The notes beneath the pieces were generated by a model. That model did not search any database. It worked only from the letters and a program-made list of their open reading frames with translations, and was not told where the DNA came from. From contig NZ_JAUALB010000001.1 of NCBI RefSeq assembly GCF_030345795.1, positions 124,001 through 188,000 on the forward strand: a stretch of DNA of 64,000 nucleotides, read 5' to 3'. Shown here piece by piece: positions 8,979-22,912 of the stretch (the stretch's first letter is position 1; the number at the start of each line of letters is the position of its first letter). This DNA is from Micromonospora sp. WMMA1363. Lineage in GTDB: Bacteria; Actinomycetota; Actinomycetes; Mycobacteriales; Micromonosporaceae. Position numbers and translations under genes: made by a program.

Positions 8979-9007
8979 TTGACGGGTTCTCGATCTCCCC
9001 CGATACT
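8979..9007 (+). promoter_or_regulatory. Probable promoter of the RHS toxin gene
   Basis: TTGACG at 8979-8984 and GATACT at 9002-9007 are separated by exactly 17 bp, a fair match to a vegetative actinobacterial promoter. The RHS gene start at 9045 would leave a leader of about 30 nt with a CCCCGGAG ribosome site. A short hairpin (GCGCTGG-A-CCAGCGC, 8926-8940) just upstream may end the oxidase transcript. Confidence 0.5.
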
Positions 9008-9044
9008 CCCGGGGATTGTTGATCAACCAGCCCCCGGAGTTCGC

Positions 9045-12000
9045 GTGTCTGCTCACCGTCGTATGGCTTTGGCCCGTCGTCGAACGTGCCGTCTGGCGCC
9101 GCTGTTGGTGGGGTCCCTGCTGGCGTCGTTGGTGGGTTGGGTTCCGCCGGCGCGGCCGGCGCCGGCGGTCGAGCCGGGGGGCAGGGATCGGTCGGCGGCG
9201 GTGTCGGCGGTGTCGGGTGAGCAGGTCCGCCGGGCGCAGATGCGGCGGTGGCGGGCGGCTCCGGCGAGGTTTCCGGGGGCGGGGTCGGCGGTGGTGGACA
9301 TGCCGGCGCAGACTTCGGGCCGGCGGCGGGGGACGGCGAACGTGGGTGGACTGCCGGTGACGGTGTCGTCGGTGGGGTTGTCGACGGATGTGCTGTCGGG
9401 GCGGGTGCTGGCGGAACGGGCGGCGGGTCGCGGTGCGCCGGGCAGGGTGCGGGTCGACGTCGTGGACCGGGCCGTGGCGAAGCGGGCCGGGGCAGCCGTG
9501 GCGTTGAAGGTGTCGCGGGCGGACGGCTTGTCGGGCGATGCCCGGGTTCGGGTGGAGATCGGGTACGGCGAGTTCCGTGACGCGTTCGGGGCGGATTGGA
9601 ACCAGCGGTTGGACGTGCTGCTGCTGGCCGACTGTGCGGCAAGCGCGCCGGAGAAGGACGCGTGTAGGAGCCGTACGCGGTTGGCGTCGGTCAACGACGC
9701 GTCGGCGTTGACGGTGTCGGCGGATGTGGATCTGATGGCCGCGCCGACGGCGGTGGTGGACGAGCCGCTGGTGGAGGCGTCGCCGGTTGATGACAGCCCG
9801 GCTGCGGTGGGTTTGCCGTCGGTGCGGGTGACCGGTTCAGATTCGCAGATCGCGCAGCCGCCGGCGGACCCGGTCGACCCGGCCGGGTCGAAGTCGACTG
9901 AATCGCGGAGTGTCGGCGCGGCGCCGCTTGCGGCGGGTGCTGGTGACGGCGCGGTGATGTTGGCATTGGCCGCGGACGGGGCGTCGGAGACGGGGACGTT
10001 TGGGGCGACGCAGTTGTCGCAGGCGGCGTCGTGGCAGGCGGGTGGTTCGTCGGGCGGGTTCTCGTGGTCGTATCCGGTTGGGGTGCCGCCGGTGCCCGGT
10101 GGCCTGACGCCGGAGGTGTCGTTGGATTATTCCAGCGCGGCGGTGGACGGGCAGACGGCCAACAACAACACCCAGCCGGGTTGGATCGGTGAGGGGTTCA
10201 GCTATGAGCCGGGGTTCATCGAGCGGTCGTACCGGTCGTGTGACCAGGACACGAACGTGACGCCGTACTGGTCGACGACGGCGTCGATGAAGGATCTGTG
10301 TTGGCGGTTGCCGAACGCGCGGCTGGTGTGGAACGGCAAGGCGACCGAGTTGGTGCCGGATGACGCGAGCGGTTCGCCGAACACGGCGACGCCGAAGGTG
10401 TGGCGTCTGGCCGATGACGATGCGACGAAGGTGGAGTACATCTCCGACCAGGGGACGGGGATCACCGGGTACTGGCACAACGAGCGGTGGCGGCTGACGA
10501 CCTCGGACGGTACCCAGTATTGGTTCGGGTTGTCGGCGGTGCCGGGTTCGGGCGCGTCGACGTCGTCGGTGCTGGGTGTGGCGATCATGGGCAACCACGC
10601 GGGGGAGCCGTGCTTCTCCTCGGCGGCCGTGACGTCGTCGTGGTGTCGTATCGCCTACCGGTGGAACCTGGACTATGTGGTGGACGTGCATGGCAACGCG
10701 ATGTCGTACCACTACAACCGGGAGGAGAACGCGCAGCGGATCTTCAATTCGAACGCGTCGTATGTGGGGTACTACCGAGCGTCGACGTTGGCGCGGGTCG
10801 AGTACGGGCTGCGTGCCGGCGTGACGAGTGGGTCTGCGCCGGCGCGGGTGGTGTTCACCACGTCGGACCGGTGCTGGGAGAACTGTTCCACACATGGCGG
10901 TAACTGGCCGGATGTGCCGTGGGATCTGGAGTGTACGGCGTATCCGTGTGGGGGTCCGACGTTCTGGTCGACGAAGCGGCTGACCAGGATCGACACGCAG
11001 GTGTGGACGGGTTCGGCCTATCGGACGGTGGACTCCCACGCGTTGAACTCGACCGTGCCGGGCACGGGACACTCAGGCGTCGGTGGTGTGTTGGCGTTGC
11101 TGTCGATCCAGCGTACGGGTTCGGACTCGGGCACGGGCGTGGCCGGCGGGAACGTCACGACCCCGCCGGTGGTGTTCGGCTACGGGGCGTCGATGCAGAA
11201 CCGGGCGCTGTTCGCGGCGGGTTCGGGCGGGGCGGAGTCGTGGAAGTTCAGGTTGCGGCAGATCGATACCGAGTCCGGTGGCCAGATCAAGATTGGCTAC
11301 AGCGGGGTGGACGCGGCGTGTGTGGGTGGGCAGGCCTCGCCGAATCCGGACAGTAACCCGCGTCGGTGTTTTCCTCAGGAGTATCAGGGCGCGTGGACGT
11401 GGTGGCACAAGTACGTGGTCACCCAGGTCATCGAGCATGACACCCGTGGCGGTGCTCCCGATGTCGTCCGCTCCTACTCCTACGGCATCACCGCGTCCGG
11501 GCTGCGCGGCGCAGGCGGGTCGATCGGGTCGAACACGTCGGTGTTGTGGCACCACGACATGAACGCGTTCGCCACCGGGCTGGCGCACCGGAGTTGGTCG
11601 CAGTGGGCGGGGTACCCGCTGGTGACGGTGACGACCGGTTCCGGGTCGACGGTGTCGAAAACGATGAGTCTGTACTTCCGGGGCATGAACGGTGACCGCA
11701 CCGACGCCGGTGACGGCACCCGCAGCGTGACGATCACGGACACCGACCACGGGACGGCCACCGACGCCCCCTACCGGGCGGGGTTCCTCAAGGAGCGGAT
11801 CACCTTCGACGGGGCCAAGGTGCTGTCGAAGGAGTTCTTCGACCCGACGTCGACCCGCACCGGGGTGCGGACGTTGAGCGCGACGTGGGCGGCGTCGGCT
11901 CCGGTGGAGGCGTGGCGCACCGAGACCGGCTGGACCAAGATCATGGACTGGGTCGAGGCAACCGGCACGTGGCGCACGTCGCAGACGAGGTGGCCCAGCT

Positions 12001-15000
12001 ATGACGCCTACGGTAACCCGCTGCAGGAGGAACAGCTCGGCGATCTGAGCAGCGGCGCCGACGACGTGTGTGTGCGTACCACGATGAACCTCAACACCAC
12101 CGGGGACCTGCGCCGTTTCGACGGTGCGACCGGTGCCGCAGCGCAGGGGACGGGGCTGACCAGCTTCGGCTCGTTCGACCACGTGTTCACCGGTGGTGAC
12201 GTCACCGGTGACGGGAAGACCGACCTGCTGGCCCGTAAGATCTCCGACGGGGCGCTGTGGGTGTTCCGCGGCGACGGCAGCGGCGGTTTCGACGCCGGCA
12301 CCCAGGCGCTCACCGGCTGGAACGTCTACGACATGCTGCTGTCACCGGGTGACTTCACCCGCGACGGCAGAAGCGACATCATCGCCCGTAAGCCGGATGG
12401 CACCCTGTGGCTGCACACCGGTACCGGCGCGGGTGGGTTCACCGCCACCGGTGTGCGAGTTGGTGTCGGGTGGGGCGGCTTCGACACGATCTTCTCCGTT
12501 GGTGACTTCGCTTCCAACGGTGTCGGTGACGTCATCGCCCGCAAGCCCAACGGTGATCTGTACCTGTACTCGGGCAACGGCTCGGGCGGATGGACCAACG
12601 GCAACGGCGGCACCCAGATCGGCAACGGCTGGCAGAGCTTCGACGCGATCACCGGCTGGAAGGACTACTCCGGCGACGCGTACCCCGACATCATCGCCCG
12701 CGGCCGTGGTGGACTGCTGCTGTACAAGGGCAGAGGCAACGGCGGGTTCCTCTCCGGTGTGACGAAGCTGCCCTACGGCATGGCCGCCGTGGACGTCGGC
12801 GGTGAGCTGGTCGCGGTCGGTGACGTCACCGCGGACGGTACCGAGGACCTGATCACGCGGACGCCGACGTATCAGACCGGCACCGTGCAGCGGCAGGAGA
12901 CCACGGCCGGCCCCTGCGCGGCCATCCCCGCCTATCCCGCCGACGCGCTCGCCGACGAGCGCTACTACTACGACCAGCCGGGTGCGTCGTCGCCGAGCCT
13001 GGACCGCAAGCCGTCGCTCGGCGATGTCACCCGCGTCGACAACGTCACGGACTACACCGGCGCCACCGCGAACTGGGTCACCACCAGCCAGGCGGTGCAC
13101 GACGTCTACGGCCGTCCGGACAAGGTCACCGACGCCCTGGGCCGGGTGACCGCCACCGCCTACACCGACACCAACGGCCTGACCACCCAGATCCGGGTCA
13201 CCAACCCGCTGTCGCACACCGTCACCACCGCCCTCGCCCCCGGCCGCGGGCTGCCCGTGACCGTCGCCGATCCCAACAACAAGACGAGCACCGGCCAGTA
13301 CGACGCCTTGGGCCGGCTGACCAAGACATGGGCCAACCGGCCCACCACCGGCACGCCGGACGCGGAGTACACGTACAACCTCAGCAACACCGCCGCCTCG
13401 TACGTCACCGCCAAGACGCTCGGGCCCAACGGCAACCAGATCGTCTCCCACCAGATCCTCGACAGCCTGCTGCGACCCCGCCAGACCCAGACCACCACAC
13501 CGGACAGCAAGCGGGTCGTCACCGACACCGTCTACGACAACCGGGGCCTGGTCGCCAAGTCATCGGTGTTCTACAACAGTGCCTCCGGCCCGACCACCAC
13601 CCTCGTCACCGCCACCGACACGGACATCGACCAGCAGACCCGCTTCGTCCACGACGCACTCGGCCGGCAGACCGCCGCGGAAGCCTGGTCGCGCAACTCC
13701 TACAAGTGGCAGACCACCACCGTCTACGACGGTGACCGCACCGCCACCATCCCACCCGCCGGCGGCACCACCACCCAGGACCTGGTCGACGTACACGGCA
13801 ACGTCGTCGAGAAACGCCAGTTCCACACCAGCGGCAGCCTCACCGGCGGCTACGACGCCACCACCTACACCTACAATCGGCGCGGCGAACTCACCGACGT
13901 CACCGACCCCGCCGGCAACACCTGGACCTACAGCTACGACCTGCTCGGGCGGCAGATCCAGGCCGTCGACCCGGACGCCGGGACCACGCTCACCGAGTAC
14001 CACGGCAACAGCACACTGCTGAAGGCCACCACCGACGGGCTCGGCAAGCGGCTGTACTACAGCTACGACAGCCTCAACCGGCGCACCGAGGTACGCGAGG
14101 ACCATTCGGCAGGGCGGTTGATGGCCGCGTGGACCTACGACACGATCGCCAAGGGCCAGCTGACCAGTTCCACCCGGTATGACACCGGCGGGCTGGCATA
14201 CACCACCAGCGTCGGCTCCTACGACGACGCCTACCGCCCCCTGTCCTCGACAGTGACGATCCCGGCGTCCACCGCGAACGGCGCCCTCGCCGGCACGTAC
14301 ACCACCTCAACCACCTACAAGCCCAACGGGGCGGTGGCGACGGTCAGCCTGCCCGGCGTCGGTGGTCTACCCGCCGAGACCCTCACCTACGGCTATGCCA
14401 CCTCCGGTGTGTCGACCACGCTCACCTCCGGCCAGGGCACCTACATCCACAACACGAACTACGGCTACGACGGGCAGGTGTCCCAACTGTTCCTCGGCGC
14501 CAGCGGCAAGCAGATACGACTCACCAACACGATCGACGCCGCCACCCGCCGCGTGACAGCCGCCCAGGTCGACACCGAGAACCAAACCACTCCCGGCACC
14601 TGGGATGACACGTTCACCACCGAGTACGGCTACCAGCACAACGGCCTGATCGCCGTCATCGCCGGCAAAACCAACGGCTCCCGCGACCAGGTCGAATGCT
14701 TCACCTACGACCACCAGCAACGCCTCACCGAAGCCTGGACCGAACCATGGTGGAGCTGCGACACACCCCAACGCGGCGGCGCCGACCCCTACTGGCGGCA
14801 GTGGACCTTCGACGCCAGCGGCAACCGAAAGACCCAGGTCGACAAACAACCCGACGGCACCGACACCACCTGGACCTACACCACCCCCACCCCCGGACAG
14901 GCCCGACCCCACTCACTGACCAGCGTCACCGCGACCGGACCCCAGGCCGGCACCCCCACCCGCACCTTCACCTACGACAACGCCGGCAACACCCTCACCC

Positions 15001-16325
15001 GCACCACACCCACCGGTAGCACCCAAACCCTCACCTGGGACCCGCAAGGGCACCTCGCCACCCTCACCGAGAACGGTGGAACCACCAGCTACCTCTACGA
15101 CGCCGACGGCAACCGACTCATCACCCGCACTCCTGACAAGACCACCCTCTACCTCGGCCACACCGAACTCGCACTCGCCACCGGCAGCGACCAGGCCGAC
15201 GGCACCCGCTACTACAACGGCCACGCCGTCCGCGACGTCACCGGCCTCAAATGGACGGTCAACAACCACCAAGGCACCGGCCACATCCAGATCGACGCCG
15301 CAGCCCTGACCAGCCAACGCCGCCGCACCATGCCCTACGGCGAGAGCCGTAACACCCCACAATCCCCCTGGCTCGGCACCAAGGGCTTCGTCGGCGGCAC
15401 CACCGACCCCACCGGCCTCACCCACCTCGGCGCCCGCGAATACGACCCCACCCTCGGCCGCTTCACCAGCATCGACCCACTCCTCAACCCCAACGACCCC
15501 CAACAACTCAACGGCTACAGCTACGCCAACAACAACCCCACCACCCTCAGCGACCCCGACGGACTCATCCCCCTCGCCACCAGCGGCGGCGGCGCCGAAG
15601 AAGAAAAACACCACAACGACAGAAACCAAAAAGTCACCTACAACACCCACAAGAAAAAGTGGACCGTCGTCAAGCCAAAGCCAAAGCCAAAGCCAAAGCC
15701 AAAGCCAAGGAAGGTTCCGCAGGACAAAACCGGTGGGAATAGGCCCGCCATCATCCTCGGGCCATTTGCCGTTGCGGCACCGAACCGCGAGGTGCTCGAG
15801 GCTGAAGTCAATAAGTACTCCGTCGACGGCTCGATGCTCGCGGGTGATCTTCCGGCCAAAGAGTATTATGTAGGTAGGGAGGTATGTAAAGCGCACCCTG
15901 ACTGGTGCACGCTAGAGGCGCTCGAGTCTGCAAAGTTGATCGATCAGATCGACGGCTTGGGTTACCATGCGCTTGCTGGTGGCTTCTACGCCAGCAAGCG
16001 GCCACCGCACAAGGCGACTGTTACGGTTTATGATGCAGCAGGAAACATCGTTCTACGCACCAACCTTGTCAGCGGAAACATGACTCCTCAGGAAAAGGCG
16101 GCGGGGTTCCCCCGAAATAGCCTCCTGACGCACACGGAGTCGAGAGCAACTCGTCACCACCCGCTACAGCCAGGCCAGACCATGTTGATTGAGGGCGAGT
16201 ATGCTCCGTGTAGCGCGTGCAAGTACGCGATGCGCGTAGCAAGTAAGGGCGGCGGGACTTACGTCTACACGTGGGACGGGAACATGAGGGTGTCGGTCGG
16301 CGGTAGGGCGATCCGTCGTCGCTGA
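9045..16325 (+). CDS. Secreted RHS/YD-repeat polymorphic toxin with C-terminal deaminase-like domain
   Basis: This 2426-residue protein opens with a signal peptide (positive residues, then LAPLLVGSLLASLVGWV). The GTG at 9045 with CCCCGGAG upstream was chosen because it places the signal peptide at the N-terminus. Then come an SpvB-like segment (FSWSYPVGVPPVPGGLTPEV), FG-GAP/VCBS repeats at residues 1050-1270 (GDVTGDGKTDLLARK and variants) and many YD repeats. The RHS core ends with GRFTSIDPLL through NPTTLSDPDG at residues 2139-2174. A KP-repeat linker near 2210 leads to the variable tip. That tip has HTE at about 2363 and PCSAC at about 2388-2392, the zinc and catalytic signature of the cytidine-deaminase superfamily. 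A nucleic-acid-deaminating contact toxin is inferred. DNA of the tip is visibly less GC-rich than the core. Confidence 0.88.
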   Translation: MSAHRRMALARRRTCRLAPLLVGSLLASLVGWVPPARPAPAVEPGGRDRSAAVSAVSGEQVRRAQMRRWRAAPARFPGAGSAVVDMPAQTSGRRRGTANVGGLPVTVSSVGLSTDVLSGRVLAERAAGRGAPGRVRVDVVDRAVAKRAGAAVALKVSRADGLSGDARVRVEIGYGEFRDAFGADWNQRLDVLLLADCAASAPEKDACRSRTRLASVNDASALTVSADVDLMAAPTAVVDEPLVEASPVDDSPAAVGLPSVRVTGSDSQIAQPPADPVDPAGSKSTESRSVGAAPLAAGAGDGAVMLALAADGASETGTFGATQLSQAASWQAGGSSGGFSWSYPVGVPPVPGGLTPEVSLDYSSAAVDGQTANNNTQPGWIGEGFSYEPGFIERSYRSCDQDTNVTPYWSTTASMKDLCWRLPNARLVWNGKATELVPDDASGSPNTATPKVWRLADDDATKVEYISDQGTGITGYWHNERWRLTTSDGTQYWFGLSAVPGSGASTSSVLGVAIMGNHAGEPCFSSAAVTSSWCRIAYRWNLDYVVDVHGNAMSYHYNREENAQRIFNSNASYVGYYRASTLARVEYGLRAGVTSGSAPARVVFTTSDRCWENCSTHGGNWPDVPWDLECTAYPCGGPTFWSTKRLTRIDTQVWTGSAYRTVDSHALNSTVPGTGHSGVGGVLALLSIQRTGSDSGTGVAGGNVTTPPVVFGYGASMQNRALFAAGSGGAESWKFRLRQIDTESGGQIKIGYSGVDAACVGGQASPNPDSNPRRCFPQEYQGAWTWWHKYVVTQVIEHDTRGGAPDVVRSYSYGITASGLRGAGGSIGSNTSVLWHHDMNAFATGLAHRSWSQWAGYPLVTVTTGSGSTVSKTMSLYFRGMNGDRTDAGDGTRSVTITDTDHGTATDAPYRAGFLKERITFDGAKVLSKEFFDPTSTRTGVRTLSATWAASAPVEAWRTETGWTKIMDWVEATGTWRTSQTRWPSYDAYGNPLQEEQLGDLSSGADDVCVRTTMNLNTTGDLRRFDGATGAAAQGTGLTSFGSFDHVFTGGDVTGDGKTDLLARKISDGALWVFRGDGSGGFDAGTQALTGWNVYDMLLSPGDFTRDGRSDIIARKPDGTLWLHTGTGAGGFTATGVRVGVGWGGFDTIFSVGDFASNGVGDVIARKPNGDLYLYSGNGSGGWTNGNGGTQIGNGWQSFDAITGWKDYSGDAYPDIIARGRGGLLLYKGRGNGGFLSGVTKLPYGMAAVDVGGELVAVGDVTADGTEDLITRTPTYQTGTVQRQETTAGPCAAIPAYPADALADERYYYDQPGASSPSLDRKPSLGDVTRVDNVTDYTGATANWVTTSQAVHDVYGRPDKVTDALGRVTATAYTDTNGLTTQIRVTNPLSHTVTTALAPGRGLPVTVADPNNKTSTGQYDALGRLTKTWANRPTTGTPDAEYTYNLSNTAASYVTAKTLGPNGNQIVSHQILDSLLRPRQTQTTTPDSKRVVTDTVYDNRGLVAKSSVFYNSASGPTTTLVTATDTDIDQQTRFVHDALGRQTAAEAWSRNSYKWQTTTVYDGDRTATIPPAGGTTTQDLVDVHGNVVEKRQFHTSGSLTGGYDATTYTYNRRGELTDVTDPAGNTWTYSYDLLGRQIQAVDPDAGTTLTEYHGNSTLLKATTDGLGKRLYYSYDSLNRRTEVREDHSAGRLMAAWTYDTIAKGQLTSSTRYDTGGLAYTTSVGSYDDAYRPLSSTVTIPASTANGALAGTYTTSTTYKPNGAVATVSLPGVGGLPAETLTYGYATSGVSTTLTSGQGTYIHNTNYGYDGQVSQLFLGASGKQIRLTNTIDAATRRVTAAQVDTENQTTPGTWDDTFTTEYGYQHNGLIAVIAGKTNGSRDQVECFTYDHQQRLTEAWTEPWWSCDTPQRGGADPYWRQWTFDASGNRKTQVDKQPDGTDTTWTYTTPTPGQARPHSLTSVTATGPQAGTPTRTFTYDNAGNTLTRTTPTGSTQTLTWDPQGHLATLTENGGTTSYLYDADGNRLITRTPDKTTLYLGHTELALATGSDQADGTRYYNGHAVRDVTGLKWTVNNHQGTGHIQIDAAALTSQRRRTMPYGESRNTPQSPWLGTKGFVGGTTDPTGLTHLGAREYDPTLGRFTSIDPLLNPNDPQQLNGYSYANNNPTTLSDPDGLIPLATSGGGAEEEKHHNDRNQKVTYNTHKKKWTVVKPKPKPKPKPKPRKVPQDKTGGNRPAIILGPFAVAAPNREVLEAEVNKYSVDGSMLAGDLPAKEYYVGREVCKAHPDWCTLEALESAKLIDQIDGLGYHALAGGFYASKRPPHKATVTVYDAAGNIVLRTNLVSGNMTPQEKAAGFPRNSLLTHTESRATRHHPLQPGQTMLIEGEYAPCSACKYAMRVASKGGGTYVYTWDGNMRVSVGGRAIRRR
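14546..15650 (+). repeat. RHS core-end direct repeat, copy 1
   Basis: This 1105-bp segment encodes the last YD repeats and the conserved RHS core end. It recurs at 17569-18673 with a constant offset of 3023 bp. I found one difference by eye (an A in copy 1, G in copy 2, within the codon pair for AGK near 14668). Sequence diverges abruptly on both sides. Such repeats allow recombination that swaps toxin tips. Confidence 0.92.
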
Positions 16326-16354: not shown

Positions 16355-16810
16355 GTGAGCATGTCGAACGACCCGCAGACTTGGGAAGTGCAGAGCGTTG
16401 AGATCGATCAGTATCTCGAGAAAGGCTGGTACTCGGTCGCCATCAACGCAACGAAGGGCAACGACGAGCTGTACTTAGAAATTCAGCTCGACACTGACGA
16501 GGAAGAGCGCGATGACGGCTACTGCATTGTCGACTCGCCTATCTATCCCGATTCCATGCATCTGTCGGAAGATCGTCTACGGCGGATTGCCCTCCACCGT
16601 ACTCTTTATGGTGGAATTGAGGAGTGCGGTCTAGTTGGACCGCTGCTGTACTTTGTGTTGTCGGATACAGCGCAGGATGCATTCGGCTGGCCAAGGCGGC
16701 TCGAACTGTCACTTTATTCCACGATGGCCCAGCTCGACTCGCTGCGCGAGGGATTGCTTAGGGTCTTTGGTGCGGTAGGCGATGCTGCGCGTCCGTTGCT
16801 GCGGATGTAG
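16355..16810 (+). CDS. Probable immunity protein for the RHS deaminase-like toxin
   Basis: The 151-residue acidic protein starts 29 bp after the toxin stop, the standard place for a cognate immunity gene. GTG at 16355 lies six bases after AGAGAGGG; TTG 16349 and ATG 16361 are alternatives. It has no signal peptide or membrane segment, as expected for a cytosolic inhibitor. Segments such as TLYGGIEECGLVGPLLYFVLS and FGWPRRLELSL recall the Imm10 immunity family, many of whose members accompany deaminase toxins, but that is from memory and unverified. Codon use is less GC-rich than in flanking metabolic genes, which fits exchange together with the toxin tip. Confidence 0.6.
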   Translation: MSMSNDPQTWEVQSVEIDQYLEKGWYSVAINATKGNDELYLEIQLDTDEEERDDGYCIVDSPIYPDSMHLSEDRLRRIALHRTLYGGIEECGLVGPLLYFVLSDTAQDAFGWPRRLELSLYSTMAQLDSLREGLLRVFGAVGDAARPLLRM

Positions 16811-16853: not shown

Positions 16854-17267
16854 GTGGGGCCTGATGCGCCGATTGGTGAAGCAGATGCACGCGCAATTCA
16901 AGAACGATGGTCCAAGGCTGGACTTGTTTCCGCTGATGTGCATCTTATCGCGACCGAAACTGAGGAACCTTCTCGGCTTTCGAACAGTCTGGGCCAGTGC
17001 ATCTGGGCGGTGTCTGAGCAGGGCCTATTCCTGCAACCTTTGTCGGACGAGTTGGCGCTAACTGAGCTTGGCTTCGGTTGGGCATGGAGACTTGGGGTCG
17101 TCCCGACGGAGGAGGGCATCCTCCTGGAAGTGGTTGAAAGCCTGACAGGAAGGACTCAGCACTGCGGGAGGATCCAGAATCCCGATCCCTTCTTTGTCGA
17201 TCGCCTACTTGCATTGACGAGAGATCGGGGGCATCTCCTTGAAGGTCCTCCAGCAGCATCTGTGTAG
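16854..17267 (+). CDS. Hypothetical protein in the toxin/immunity cassette
   Basis: The 137-residue product has GTG at 16854 and follows the immunity gene by 43 bp. I do not recognise it. It has no obvious membrane segment and ends in a proline-rich tail. The middle reads LGFGWAWRLGVVPTEEGILLEV, compatible with a small alpha/beta cytosolic protein. Its place between a complete toxin-immunity pair and a displaced RHS core fragment suggests an orphan immunity gene left by an earlier toxin. Its lower GC content than the surroundings supports transfer. There is no sequence evidence for the inhibitory role itself. Confidence 0.5.
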   Translation: MGPDAPIGEADARAIQERWSKAGLVSADVHLIATETEEPSRLSNSLGQCIWAVSEQGLFLQPLSDELALTELGFGWAWRLGVVPTEEGILLEVVESLTGRTQHCGRIQNPDPFFVDRLLALTRDRGHLLEGPPAASV

Positions 17268-17568
17268 GATTCTGTGCGATCGGCCCAACGGGTATGCACC
17301 TCGTCACCGTGGGTGCCAGGGCCGTTGCTGTTCGGCGGCTGATGGTTTGAGCTGGGATCACGTGATTGACCTCTGTGGAAGTGCTCGGGGCGGGTGACCT
17401 CGTCTAGGTGATCATGGAGGTCTCTATGCTCCCAGCCGGCGTTCCCACAACCTCATCACCGCCGTGACCGGCAGCAGCCCGAGAGCGCAATTATTACGCT
17501 GTGCAGTGGCCCCGGAACGCCACCGCGAGCACCAGGTGAATGAACGCCAGCCAGTCGGTCCCGTACCT
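17268..17568. other. Junction DNA before the displaced RHS fragment, with a small gene remnant
   Basis: No intact gene is seen in these 301 bp. On the minus strand, from about 17566 down to 17492, the translation RYGTDWLAFIHLVLAVAF runs into a stop. It resembles the conserved DWLAF-H segment of a small actinobacterial membrane protein family, so it may be a fragment left by rearrangement. The RHS duplicate starts abruptly at 17569 inside the next frame. The identity of the remnant is a weak guess. Confidence 0.3.
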
Positions 17569-18760
17569 CCGCCGCGTGACAGCCGCCCAGGTCGACACCG
17601 AGAACCAAACCACTCCCGGCACCTGGGATGACACGTTCACCACCGAGTACGGCTACCAGCACAACGGCCTGATCGCCGTCATCGCCGGCAAGACCAACGG
17701 CTCCCGCGACCAGGTCGAATGCTTCACCTACGACCACCAGCAACGCCTCACCGAAGCCTGGACCGAACCATGGTGGAGCTGCGACACACCCCAACGCGGC
17801 GGCGCCGACCCCTACTGGCGGCAGTGGACCTTCGACGCCAGCGGCAACCGAAAGACCCAGGTCGACAAACAACCCGACGGCACCGACACCACCTGGACCT
17901 ACACCACCCCCACCCCCGGACAGGCCCGACCCCACTCACTGACCAGCGTCACCGCGACCGGACCCCAGGCCGGCACCCCCACCCGCACCTTCACCTACGA
18001 CAACGCCGGCAACACCCTCACCCGCACCACACCCACCGGTAGCACCCAAACCCTCACCTGGGACCCGCAAGGGCACCTCGCCACCCTCACCGAGAACGGT
18101 GGAACCACCAGCTACCTCTACGACGCCGACGGCAACCGACTCATCACCCGCACTCCTGACAAGACCACCCTCTACCTCGGCCACACCGAACTCGCACTCG
18201 CCACCGGCAGCGACCAGGCCGACGGCACCCGCTACTACAACGGCCACGCCGTCCGCGACGTCACCGGCCTCAAATGGACGGTCAACAACCACCAAGGCAC
18301 CGGCCACATCCAGATCGACGCCGCAGCCCTGACCAGCCAACGCCGCCGCACCATGCCCTACGGCGAGAGCCGTAACACCCCACAATCCCCCTGGCTCGGC
18401 ACCAAGGGCTTCGTCGGCGGCACCACCGACCCCACCGGCCTCACCCACCTCGGCGCCCGCGAATACGACCCCACCCTCGGCCGCTTCACCAGCATCGACC
18501 CACTCCTCAACCCCAACGACCCCCAACAACTCAACGGCTACAGCTACGCCAACAACAACCCCACCACCCTCAGCGACCCCGACGGACTCATCCCCCTCGC
18601 CACCAGCGGCGGCGGCGCCGAAGAAGAAAAACACCACAACGACAGAAACCAAAAAGTCACCTACAACACCCACGAAAAGAAGTGGAAAGTCGTCAAAAAG
18701 AAGCAGCCCAAGATTATATCCCCGCCGAAACCGCCAACTAAGGCTAAGGCTGAGGCCTGA
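17540..18760 (+). pseudogene. Displaced RHS core-end fragment without a toxin tip
   Basis: The open frame gives about 406 residues. Residues from RRVTAAQV onward copy the RHS core end of the large gene through GRFTSIDPLL and NPTTLSDPDG. It then diverges after YNTHEKKWKVV into a short KP-rich tail, PPKPPTKAKAEA, that stops two bases before the IS256 left end at 18763. It has no signal peptide, no plausible own promoter and no toxin domain. This is an orphan RHS tip module of the kind that reserves alternative toxins, here apparently cut by IS256. It could still be transcribed or act as recombination donor. Confidence 0.75.
17569..18673 (+). repeat. RHS core-end direct repeat, copy 2
   Basis: This is the second copy of the 1105-bp segment at 14546-15650, in the same orientation 3023 bp away. 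The near-perfect identity implies a recent duplication or ongoing gene conversion. It ends at YNTH, exactly where the toxin tips begin to differ. Confidence 0.92.
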
Positions 18761-18811
18761 GAGGGACTGTACAAATAACGGCTGATCGACCGATCAAGGG
18801 AGAGACGCCAG

Positions 18812-20092
18812 ATGACGACCGAGACCACCGTGGGACAGCCGGCCGTGGAGCCGGTGGGTGCGGTCACGGATGAGCAGTTGATCGCGATGCTGGTCGATCG
18901 GGCTCGTGGTGACGGGTTGAAGCTGACCGGCGAGGGTGGGCTGCTGCAGCAGCTGACGAAGCGGGTCCTCGAGTCGGCGTTGGATGGGGAGATCACCGAC
19001 CACGTCGGCTACGACAAGCACGACCCGGCGGGTCGGGGTAGCGGGAACACCCGTAACGGCAGCCGGACCAAGACGGTGCTCACCGACGTCGGGCCGGTCG
19101 AGGTGCGGGTCCCACGCGACGCCGCCGGGACGTTCGAGCCGCAGATCGTGCGTAAGCGGCAGCGGCGTCTGACCGGCGTCGACGACATGGTCCTGTCGCT
19201 GTCGGCCAAGGGCCTGACCCACGGCGAGATCGCCGCGCACCTGGCTGAGGTCTACGGCGCTGAGGTGTCGAAGCAGACCATCTCCACGATCACCGACAAG
19301 GTCATGGACGGCATGGCCGAGTGGCAGAACCGGCCCCTGGACCGGGTCTACCCGGTCGTGTTCATCGACGCCATCAACGTCAAGATCAGGGACGGTCAGG
19401 TCGCGAACCGGCCGATCTACCTCGCGATGGCGGTCACCGTCGACGGCCACCGCGACATCCTCGGTATCTGGGCCGGTGACGGCGGCGAGGGCGCCAAGTA
19501 CTGGCTGCACGTGCTCACCGAGTTGAAGAACCGCGGCGTGGCCGACGTGCTGATGCTGGTCTGTGACGGGCTCAAGGGACTGCCGGAGACGGTGGAGACG
19601 GTGTGGCCGCGCACGATCGTGCAGACGTGTGTGGTGCACCTGCTGCGCAACTCGTTCCGCTACGCCGCCCGGCAGGACTGGGACAAGATCGCCAAAGCGC
19701 TGCGGCCGGTCTACACCGCGGCGACCGAGGACGCCGCCACCGAGCGGTTCCTCGAGTTCGCCGAGGCGTGGGGCCGTAAGTATCCGGCGATCGTGAAGCT
19801 GTGGGAGAACGCGTGGGCGGAGTTCGTGCCGTTCCTCGCCTTCGACGTGGAGATCCGCAAGGTCATCTGCTCCACGAACGCGATCGAGTCCGTCAACGCC
19901 CGTATCCGCAGGGCCGTGCGAGCTCGTGGCCACTTCCCGAACGAGCAGGCCGCACTCAAGTGCGTCTACATGGCCTTGATGAGCCTCGACCCGACCGGAG
20001 CCGGCCGCCGACGCTGGACCATGCGCTGGAAAGCACCACTGAACGCCTTCCAGATCGCCTTCGAAGGCCGGCTCACCCCGGCCAACAACTGA
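18812..20092 (+). CDS. IS256-family transposase (intact)
   Basis: This 426-residue mutator-type DDE transposase has catalytic aspartate segments VVFIDAINVKIRDG and VCDGLKGLPE and the glutamate segment STNAIESVNARIRRAVR. The N-terminal region includes DHVGYDKHDPAGRGSGN. The length is full for the family. ATG at 18812 follows GGGAGAG. Its first 364 residues are also encoded, inverted, by the truncated copy at 21769-22863. It is probably active, since the frame is undamaged and the ends are recognisable. Confidence 0.95.
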   Translation: MTTETTVGQPAVEPVGAVTDEQLIAMLVDRARGDGLKLTGEGGLLQQLTKRVLESALDGEITDHVGYDKHDPAGRGSGNTRNGSRTKTVLTDVGPVEVRVPRDAAGTFEPQIVRKRQRRLTGVDDMVLSLSAKGLTHGEIAAHLAEVYGAEVSKQTISTITDKVMDGMAEWQNRPLDRVYPVVFIDAINVKIRDGQVANRPIYLAMAVTVDGHRDILGIWAGDGGEGAKYWLHVLTELKNRGVADVLMLVCDGLKGLPETVETVWPRTIVQTCVVHLLRNSFRYAARQDWDKIAKALRPVYTAATEDAATERFLEFAEAWGRKYPAIVKLWENAWAEFVPFLAFDVEIRKVICSTNAIESVNARIRRAVRARGHFPNEQAALKCVYMALMSLDPTGAGRRRWTMRWKAPLNAFQIAFEGRLTPANN

Positions 20093-20124: not shown

Positions 20125-21751
20125 GGCCCTGTCTCACTTTCGGTGGTGACGGAGGGTGGCGGGTGTCGTTGTTCCTATGTGGAGGATGTCAACAGACTTG
20201 TACGGACGGTGTTCTCGGGGCTGTCCCCGCTGGTCATCGAGGACGTGACCGACGAGGGTGAGCGGATCGTGGTGCGGGCCCGGACGCCGCGTGACACTGC
20301 GGTCTGCCCGAGGTGCGGGGCCTCGTCCGGACGGGTGCACGGCTATCACTGGCGGACGGTCGCCGACGTTCCGGTCGACGGGCGCCGGGTGGTGGTCCGT
20401 GTGCGGGTGCGGCGTCTGGTGTGCCCCACGCGCGGCTGCCGCCACACCTTCCGTGAACAGGTTCCCGGGGTGCTGGAGCGATACCAGCGCCGCACAGCCC
20501 GTTTGAACAGGCAGGTCAAAGCCGTCGTCAAGGAGTTAGCGGGCCGGGCAGGGTCGCGTCTGCTGGCGATACTCGCCATGGGCCTGTCCCGTCACACGGC
20601 TCTACGCGCCCTGCTGTGCATCCCGCTGCCCAATGAGCGGACGCCTCGGGTGATCGGCGTTGACGATTTCGCTCTACGCCGGCGGCACCGCTACGCCACC
20701 GTGGTGATCGACGCCGAGACCCATGAGCGGATCGACGTGCTACCCGACCGCACCGCCGACACCCTCGAAGCGTGGTTACGCGCACATCCCGGCGTCGAGG
20801 TCGTATGCCGCGACGGCTCGGCGACCTACGCCGAGGCCATTCGCCGCGCCCTGCCCGACGCGGTGCAGGTCGCAGACCGGTGGCACCTGTGGCACAACCT
20901 CTGTGAAGCCGCCCTCAGCGAGGTGAAGGCGCACAGTACCTGCTGGGCCCCCGTCCTGGACGCACCCATCTACGACGGCCCCCGCGCGCGGACGACCCAG
21001 CAACGCTGGCACCAGGTCCATGACCTGCTCGACCAAGGCGTGGGCCTGCTGGAGTGCGCCCGCCGTCTGCAGTTGGCCCTGAACACCGTCAAGCGCTACG
21101 CGCGAGCCGACCGGCCCGAGCGGATGCTCCGCGTCCCCAAATACCGTGCCAGCCTCGTCGACCCCTACCGCGAACACCTACGCAAACGTCGAGCCGAGGA
21201 CCCCAGCGTCGGCGTCAAGCACCTCTTCGACGAGATCAAGACCCTCGGCTTCACCGGCTGCCTCAACCTCCTGCACAAGTACATCAACCAAGGCCGCGCG
21301 GACGCCGACCGCAGCCACATCTCCCCACGCCGCCTCGCCCGGATGATCCTCACCAGACCCGACAACCTCAAACCCGAGCGCCGAGATCTACTGGCACGGC
21401 TCACCGCAGCCTGCCCAGAGATGACCCAACTCGCCGCCGCTGTCGGACGCTTCGCCGAGCTCCTGACGCCTCAACCCGCAAACACCGACCGGCTCTCGCA
21501 CTGGATCCTGCAGGTTCGCACGGTCGATCTACCTCATCTGCACGCCTTCACCCGAGGCCTGGAACGCGACCGCGACGCCGTGAACGCCGCGCTCACGCTC
21601 CCCTACAGCAACGGCCCCACCGAAGGCGTCAACACCAAGACCAAACGAATCGCACGTCAAATGCACGGACGAGCAGGCTTCACCCTGCTCCGCCACCGCA
21701 TCCTCCTCGGATAACAGCACCCACCGTCACCACCGAAAGTGAGACAGGGCC
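20125..21751 (+). mobile_element. ISL3-family insertion sequence with 28-bp inverted repeats and 8-bp target duplication
   Basis: Perfect 28-bp inverted repeats lie at 20125-20152 and 21724-21751, beginning GGCCCTGTCTCAC. The flanking 8 bp GTTAACTT occurs at 20117-20124 and again at 21752-21759, the duplication size expected for ISL3. The element is 1627 bp and inserted into the right end region of IS256 copy 1. Intact ends and exact duplication indicate a recent insertion. Confidence 0.93.
20143..21714 (+). CDS. ISL3-family transposase
   Basis: This 523-residue ISL3 transposase has an N-terminal zinc-binding segment with CPRCGASSGRVHGYH, then CPTRGCRHTFREQVPG. The DDE core is visible as IGVDDFALRRRHRYATVV, ALPDAVQVADRWHLWHNL and YSNGPTEGVNTKTKRIAR. 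The longest frame starts with GTG at 20143 inside the left inverted repeat. GTG at 20179 (VEDVNRLVRTVF) is an equally plausible start. The frame is intact. Confidence 0.93.
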   Translation: MVTEGGGCRCSYVEDVNRLVRTVFSGLSPLVIEDVTDEGERIVVRARTPRDTAVCPRCGASSGRVHGYHWRTVADVPVDGRRVVVRVRVRRLVCPTRGCRHTFREQVPGVLERYQRRTARLNRQVKAVVKELAGRAGSRLLAILAMGLSRHTALRALLCIPLPNERTPRVIGVDDFALRRRHRYATVVIDAETHERIDVLPDRTADTLEAWLRAHPGVEVVCRDGSATYAEAIRRALPDAVQVADRWHLWHNLCEAALSEVKAHSTCWAPVLDAPIYDGPRARTTQQRWHQVHDLLDQGVGLLECARRLQLALNTVKRYARADRPERMLRVPKYRASLVDPYREHLRKRRAEDPSVGVKHLFDEIKTLGFTGCLNLLHKYINQGRADADRSHISPRRLARMILTRPDNLKPERRDLLARLTAACPEMTQLAAAVGRFAELLTPQPANTDRLSHWILQVRTVDLPHLHAFTRGLERDRDAVNAALTLPYSNGPTEGVNTKTKRIARQMHGRAGFTLLRHRILLG

Positions 21752-21768
21752 GTTAACTTGACACTCCC

Positions 21769-22863
21769 GATACGGGCGTTGACGGACTCGATCGCGTTCG
21801 TGGAGCAGATGACCTTGCGGATCTCCACGTCGAAGGCGAGGAACGGCACGAACTCCGCCCACGCGTTCTCCCACAGCTTCACGATCGCCGGATACTTACG
21901 GCCCCACGCCTCGGCGAACTCGAGGAACCGCTCGGTGGCGGCGTCCTCGGTCGCCGCGGTGTAGACCGGCCGCAGCGCTTTGGCGATCTTGTCCCAGTCC
22001 TGCCGGGCGGCGTAGCGGAACGAGTTGCGCAGCAGGTGCACCACACACGTCTGCACGATCGTGCGCGGCCACACCGTCTCCACCGTCTCCGGCAGTCCCT
22101 TGAGCCCGTCACAGACCAGCATCAGCACGTCGGCCACGCCGCGGTTCTTCAACTCGGTGAGCACGTGCAGCCAGTACTTGGCGCCCTCGCCGCCGTCACC
22201 GGCCCAGATACCGAGGATGTCGCGGTGGCCGTCGACGGTGACCGCCATCGCGAGGTAGATCGGCCGGTTCGCGACCTGACCGTCCCTGATCTTGACGTTG
22301 ATGGCGTCGATGAACACGACCGGGTAGACCCGGTCCAGGGGCCGGTTCTGCCACTCGGCCATGCCGTCCATGACCTTGTCGGTGATCGTGGAGATGGTCT
22401 GCTTCGACACCTCAGCGCCGTAGACCTCAGCCAGGTGCGCGGCGATCTCGCCGTGGGTCAGGCCCTTGGCCGACAGCGACAGGACCATGTCGTCGACGCC
22501 GGTCAGACGCCGCTGCCGCTTACGCACGATCTGCGGCTCGAACGTCCCGGCGGCGTCGCGTGGGACCCGCACCTCGACCGGCCCGACGTCGGTGAGCACC
22601 GTCTTGGTCCGGCTGCCGTTACGGGTGTTCCCGCTACCCCGACCCGCCGGGTCGTGCTTGTCGTAGCCGACGTGGTCGGTGATCTCCCCATCCAACGCCG
22701 ACTCGAGGACCCGCTTCGTCAGCTGCTGCAGCAGCCCACCCTCGCCGGTCAGCTTCAACCCGTCACCACGAGCCCGATCGACCAGCATCGCGATCAACTG
22801 CTCATCCGTGACCGCACCCACCGGCTCCACGGCCGGCTGTCCCACGGTGGTCTCGGTCGTCAT
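21769..22863 (-). pseudogene. IS256-family transposase, C-terminally truncated
   Basis: The first 364 residues match the intact transposase at 18812-20092 through ESVNARI. The frame then runs into copy 1 end sequence, adding the foreign tail GSVKLTALSHFRW. All three catalytic residues are still present but the final helical part is gone, so it is probably inactive. Confidence 0.9.
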
Positions 22864-22912
22864 CTGGCGTCTCTCCCTTGATCGGTCGATCAGCCGTTAT
22901 TTGTACAGTCCC
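21769..22912 (-). mobile_element. IS256-family element, copy 2, 3'-truncated and inverted
   Basis: The outer end (22888-22912, complement) is identical to the left end of copy 1. The element then matches copy 1 until the codon run for VNARI, where it stops at 21769 against the terminus of copy 1. About 220 bp including its own right end are missing. Its outer end is inserted into the 3' end of an IS982 transposase gene. Confidence 0.9.

Follow-up and report, generated by a model that had tools for sequence, protein, structure and literature searches.

A predicted DddB-like deaminase tip behind an unnamed domain in an RHS toxin of Micromonospora sp. WMMA1363

We analysed 64,000 nucleotides of Micromonospora sp. 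WMMA1363 DNA (contig NZ_JAUALB010000001.1, positions 124,001 to 188,000 of the forward strand; hereafter the window), in which a large RHS/YD-repeat protein ends in a tip that is, by its sequence, a deaminase of the already described Pput_2613/BaDTF3/DddB family. We propose, with a probability of roughly 0.86, that this tip forms the toxic C-terminus of a secreted polymorphic toxin of the RHS type, namely a cytosine deaminase acting on double-stranded DNA (dsDNA), and that the next gene is protective. The enzyme family is known; the local interest lies in the mosaic structure of the locus and in an unnamed domain before the tip. The parts of the toxin gene, in window coordinates, are as follows.

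9045..16325, + strand: RHS/YD-repeat toxin protein (open frame from TTG 8979; Pfam/NCBIfam)
15333..15566, + strand: RHS core end (TIGR03696), with its final DPDGL at 15552-15566 (profile; motif by eye)
15567..15737, + strand: linker with a KP run at 15672-15707, site of the tip change (sequence, repeat boundary)
15738..15992, + strand: unnamed pre-toxin domain of about 85 amino acids (aa), motif IILG..AP..L...C..HPxWC, common to several RHS proteins
15990..16283, + strand: Pput_2613-like deaminase domain (PF14427), residues 2338-2435 (Pfam), with a tail onward to the stop at 16325
16131..16139, + strand: HTE, residues 2385-2387 of the 2448-aa frame (2363-2365 from GTG 9045; alignment)
16206..16220, + strand: PCSAC, residues 2410-2414 of the 2448-aa frame (2388-2392 from GTG 9045; alignment)

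The PF14427 profile matched the tip alone at 121.1 bits (E = 2.8e-35; curated cut-off 25 bits) and the full RHS protein at 117.6 bits (E = 3.4e-34). This hidden Markov model search bears out the initial annotation, made from the letters of the window, which had read a deaminase-fold toxin tip behind the core end and a KP linker; its positions for HTE (near residue 2363) and PCSAC (2388-2392) are exact when counted from GTG 9045. We take HTE to supply the zinc-ligand His and the catalytic Glu, and PCSAC presumably supplies the two zinc-ligand Cys. In an alignment of eight deaminase sequences (the tip, P0003, P0002 and pieces from five further genomes), H47, T48, E49, C73 and C76 were invariant in all eight. 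P0003 is a separate sequence, 86% identical to the tip and with the same motifs. A DNA pattern for the HTE region gave 1 match where 1.28 were expected and is uninformative, so the deaminase claim rests on the PF14427 profile. Protein database searches with the tip returned one match each, P0002 (among the 7981 top candidates, to which scoring was limited) and P0003; a deep alignment was thus impossible and the models are weak. The order of strands and helices was read from a tip model of middling confidence (mean predicted local distance difference test score, pLDDT, 62.9).

Searching PDB sequences with the tip gave four clear matches (9k3e, 9pw0, 9pw1 and 9pw2, named 'YD repeat protein' or 'BaDTF3'), followed by an unrelated adhesin at E 0.4. 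The nearest solved structure is 9k3e, titled DddB(BadTF3) dsDNA deaminase, at about 54% identity. A structural-library match list (the VIA list) was also considered, in which the absence of a family does not exclude that family. According to the passages found on this family, to which our use of the literature is confined, the Pput_2613-like toxins were renamed BaDTF3, and the member from Taylorella equigenitalis is toxic in E. coli and raises C:G-to-T:A changes, its preferred context being TC, followed by AC and CC, with GC avoided (PMC7901873). DddB, whose source organism is also T. equigenitalis (PMC13304343), prefers TC over GC with a weaker bias than DddA (PMC12698189), and is described as dsDNA-acting with more non-TC activity than DddA (PMC13299692, citing Yin et al. 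2026).

The carrier has the make-up of an RHS polymorphic toxin: FG-GAP and RHS/YD repeats lead to an RHS core end (Pfam, NCBIfam), TIGR03696 stands above its cut-off (60.2 vs. 32.5 bits, match ending at residue 2196), a variable tip lies behind it, and tips differ between related cores. Its open frame (8979-16325, + strand) encodes 2448 aa counted from TTG 8979, or 2426 aa from GTG 9045, the start used for numbering in the initial annotation. Read from GTG 9045, the protein has an N-terminus that resembles a secretion signal: around residue 15, a hydrophobic run of 19 residues averages 1.69 on the Kyte-Doolittle scale. RHS toxins have paired aspartyl-protease motifs about 17 residues apart, according to a passage of PMC8636562; here the second is DPDGL and the first, DPLLN, is not canonical, with 21 residues between them. 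By analogy with that paper, from which cleavage after DPDGL is inferred, this motif is likely the self-cleavage boundary of the core.

In the mechanism that we propose, Sec-type export would bring the RHS shell and the C-terminal piece that it carries (linker, pre-toxin domain and deaminase) outside the cell, where cleavage after the DPDGL of the core would free the piece for entry into a target cell. There His2385, Cys2411 and Cys2414 would bind a zinc ion and Glu2387 would shuttle protons, and cytosine in the double-stranded DNA of the rival would be converted to uracil, a preceding T probably being the most favourable neighbour and a preceding G the least. The recipient would be killed or mutated, and the product of the next downstream gene would shield the producer. 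That gene is followed by one further small open reading frame (ORF).

16355..16810, + strand: candidate immunity gene, 151 aa, Imm10-like (GTG 16355, alternative ATG 16361; frame open from TTG 16349)
16854..17267, + strand: small ORF, 137 aa, no Pfam family

The GTG of the candidate immunity gene lies 29 bases beyond the toxin stop at 16325. Its only Pfam match is to Imm10 (PF15588), at 19.1 bits against a curated cut-off of 28.6 (E = 0.0016). Imm10 is an immunity family listed for Pput_2613 deaminases in the passage found of PMC3482391. When the family of the candidate gene (4 sequences) was compared by hhalign with four Imm10-like genes lying downstream of other PF14427 toxins (three above the Imm10 cut-off, one below), the probability was 96.9 (E 1.7e-10), vs. 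0.2, 0.1 and 0.1 for controls with unrelated alignments. Among the first downstream genes of six other PF14427 toxins, three passed the Imm10 cut-off, two matched below it and one, at the Micromonospora acroterricola locus (L018/L019), had no Imm10 match. A phmmer search of 80 downstream ORFs with the candidate gene gave 1 weak match (E 4.5e-4), and alignments A6 and A5 gave no convincing match to a solved Imm10 structure. Because the gene falls below the Pfam cut-off, yet is supported by the profile comparison, we call its product Imm10-like rather than a member of Imm10; it is a likely immunity protein and, by sequence, a divergent relative of that family. Of 160 genomes of the genus, 4 (this one among them) have a relative of the gene; two of the others (G138 and G082) lack a PF14427 match, so the relatives are orphans there. 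In the remaining one, G328, an Imm10-looking ORF (L033, 1270-1716) resembles both the candidate gene and the Imm10 genes. The small ORF, which had no relative in the 90 other genus genomes searched, may be a further immunity gene, or else a remnant.

The locus is one with tip exchange, and the features that bear on this lie within the RHS gene and just downstream of the two small genes.

14546..15650, + strand: direct repeat copy 1, inside the RHS gene (1 mismatch in 1105 bases)
17540..18760, + strand: orphan fragment, the 3' end of an RHS core running into another, short tail instead of a toxin (ORF, Pfam, repeat)
17569..18673, + strand: direct repeat copy 2, inside the orphan fragment (1 mismatch in 1105 bases)
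18812..20092, + strand: Mutator-family transposase (PF00872), directly after the orphan fragment (Pfam)

The two 1105-base copies diverge within the linker, and the orphan lacks a toxin domain, ending instead in a short proline/lysine tail. A second RHS protein of the same genome (L056) shares 58% core identity and an almost identical linker with this one but differs in its tip. The last 170 aa of the RHS core are closer to those of two proteins with non-deaminase tips (81% identity to G120, 79% to G078) than to those of the deaminase carriers (P0002 52%, G279 51%, G332 51%, G009 53%). The pre-toxin domain behaves likewise, with 50-51% identity to G120 and G078 vs. 31-39% to the four deaminase carriers, the compared windows not being perfectly equivalent; a second comparison agrees (G120 49% vs. 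P0002 30%, G279 33% and G009 31%). Since the similarity of the pre-toxin domain follows that of the RHS core, the deaminase was probably grafted behind the domain.

Several observations complete the description of the neighbourhood. The Mutator-family transposase gene takes part in a perfect 1149-base inverted repeat (18763-19911 and 21764-22912), the second copy being cut short, with an ISL3-family transposase (20143-21714) between the copies. Directly upstream of the RHS gene is a multicopper oxidase gene (PF07732/PF07731; 6437-8905), the ORF start of which is probably placed too far upstream. Elsewhere in the genome there are three more RHS proteins with different tips (L055, L056 and L057), one of which, L055, has a Hint-like stretch and an HNH-like tip, both by eye.

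Three other explanations of the tip can be weighed against these data. A Pput_2613-family deaminase might have single-stranded DNA (ssDNA), RNA or a free nucleotide as its true substrate rather than dsDNA: substrates vary within the deaminase superfamily, even between closely related clades, SsdA preferring ssDNA (PMC7901873), and the passages found document a substrate for one family member only. The identity of about 54% to the dsDNA-acting DddB, however, extends over the whole domain and includes the stretch around both motifs, and we consider this explanation unlikely. Less likely still is a decayed, inactive tip left over from recombination and transposition. Two transposases and the orphan fragment do adjoin the locus, and apparently broken copies occur in other family genomes (G235 and G060), yet the frame of the tip is fully open with every motif residue kept, an intact candidate immunity gene adjoins it, and the separate sequence P0003 retains the same motifs.

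A DddA-type deaminase (SCP1.201, BaDTF1) or a wholly new deaminase branch is scarcely credible, given the single strong match to PF14427 and a nearest structure that is BaDTF3/DddB by a wide margin. The initial annotation was right that the tip differs from DddA: none of the three Pfam families listed for it at E up to 1 is of the SCP1.201/DddA type. Its suggestion of a distinct branch with a new substrate preference found no support; we reject such a branch on the PF14427 match and the DddB structure match, and for this named family the deamination of cytosine in DNA, in a TC>AC/CC context, has been published (PMC7901873). The tip itself may or may not share that neighbour-base preference.

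The pre-toxin domain in front of the deaminase matched no named Pfam family; the region gave only a sub-cut-off hit to FlgD_ig, over the start of the deaminase, and a match to TonB_N, on the KP run. Neither PHROG nor PADLOC returned a family with a usable E-value, and no PDB sequence matched profile A7, built from the pre-toxin domains of four deaminase carriers; the quality of its model (mean pLDDT 53.8) was considered too low to justify searching for similar folds. With A7 and an E-value limit of 0.01, the domain turned up in 7 of 300 genomes of the family, and four of the seven carry other tips (E 5e-14, 5e-14, 7e-8 and 7.5e-4). Profile A8 includes several sequences found with A7, which therefore match by construction; it detected the domain in 8 of 354 genomes of the family and in 3 of 394 of the class, each count taking in the present genome, and one of the class-level matches (G1058) is weak and broken. 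All these counts are lower bounds, as the best 13-17 first-look candidates were scored per genome.

A deaminase tip stands behind the domain in five cases (G000, G279, G332, G009 and P0002). The CxxHPxWC domain is also present in RHS proteins whose tips are of other kinds, at least four in number: PT-HINT with Ntox50 (G120), PT-HINT with a weak colicin-DNase match below cut-off (E 0.011; G078), Ntox17 (G114), and a GIY-YIG-like tip recognized by eye without a Pfam match (G107), that of G1086 being similar. In G120 and G078 the domain precedes Hint, and therefore would not leave with the toxin there. CdiA-CT has a cytoplasm-entry domain, according to PMC9424206. By analogy, we infer that the pre-toxin domain may be a carrier-side module for docking or entry. 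Tentatively, and with less than even odds, the domain could serve some actinobacterial RHS toxins as a general adaptor that travels with the core rather than the tip and sits just before the toxin or its Hint, helping the cargo to dock or enter; it would then be the Gram-positive equivalent of the entry part of CdiA-CT.

PF14427 occurs once in the genome itself. Counting that genome, 12 of 300 genomes of the family and 2 of 396 of the phylum have a match, the other phylum match being below cut-off; it is absent from all 14 control genomes. A scan of genome contigs with the deaminase domain of the tip found nothing; a scan with alignment A4 returned an Acidovorax metagenome-assembled genome and Micromonospora acroterricola, at 44% each. 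Two copies in family genomes appear broken, one a 94-aa frame (G235) and one with an internal stop (G060). No phage record matched the tip. A plasmid source was considered and rejected, the one match being weak (a Streptomyces zaomyceticus plasmid record, 31.5% over 45%). The literature passages found on the BaDTF3/Pput_2613/DddB family contain no Micromonospora member.

The locus would enlarge a small family of DNA-editing interest by an actinobacterial DddB-like deaminase with its candidate immunity partner, and would show a deaminase tip grafted onto an RHS carrier that bears other toxins elsewhere. If the pre-toxin domain is an entry or docking module, it bears on the route of cargo from shell to target cytosol in RHS proteins without a type VI system. 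If the adaptor proposal is true, the deaminase is a recent graft, and the locus offers a natural case in which a DNA deaminase and other toxins are interchanged by swapping a single part.

Comparison with known systems places each part. The Salmonella orphan rhs-CT fragments (passage of PMC3967940) are the counterpart of the orphan here, which differs in that its own toxin is missing and a transposase lies behind it. The candidate immunity gene differs from Imm10 by an extra stretch, APHSATC..HRTLYGG, that interrupts the alignment. DddA (BaDTF1, SCP1.201-like) has HxE and CxxC motifs in common with the tip, as well as the deaminase fold and use as a toxin that are predicted for the tip (PMC7901873). 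Other Micromonosporaceae have Pput_2613 tips linked to a Hint-like stretch seen by eye (L004, L005, L008, L010 and L011), of the same deaminase family and on RHS-type carriers; two of these (L004 and L010), and L007, where no Hint is seen by eye, are 38-39% identical to the tip, and all three have an 18-column insert after HTE. The closest likeness is to BaDTF3/DddB: the whole domain can be aligned at about 54% identity, HTE and PCxxC are in register with 9k3e, and the carrier is likewise of the RHS/YD-repeat type, the PDB molecule being named 'YD repeat protein'. The Micromonospora protein, with its predicted activity, differs from BaDTF3/DddB in its actinobacterial carrier, its C-terminal tail, some residues around the second motif, and the extra pre-toxin domain in front.
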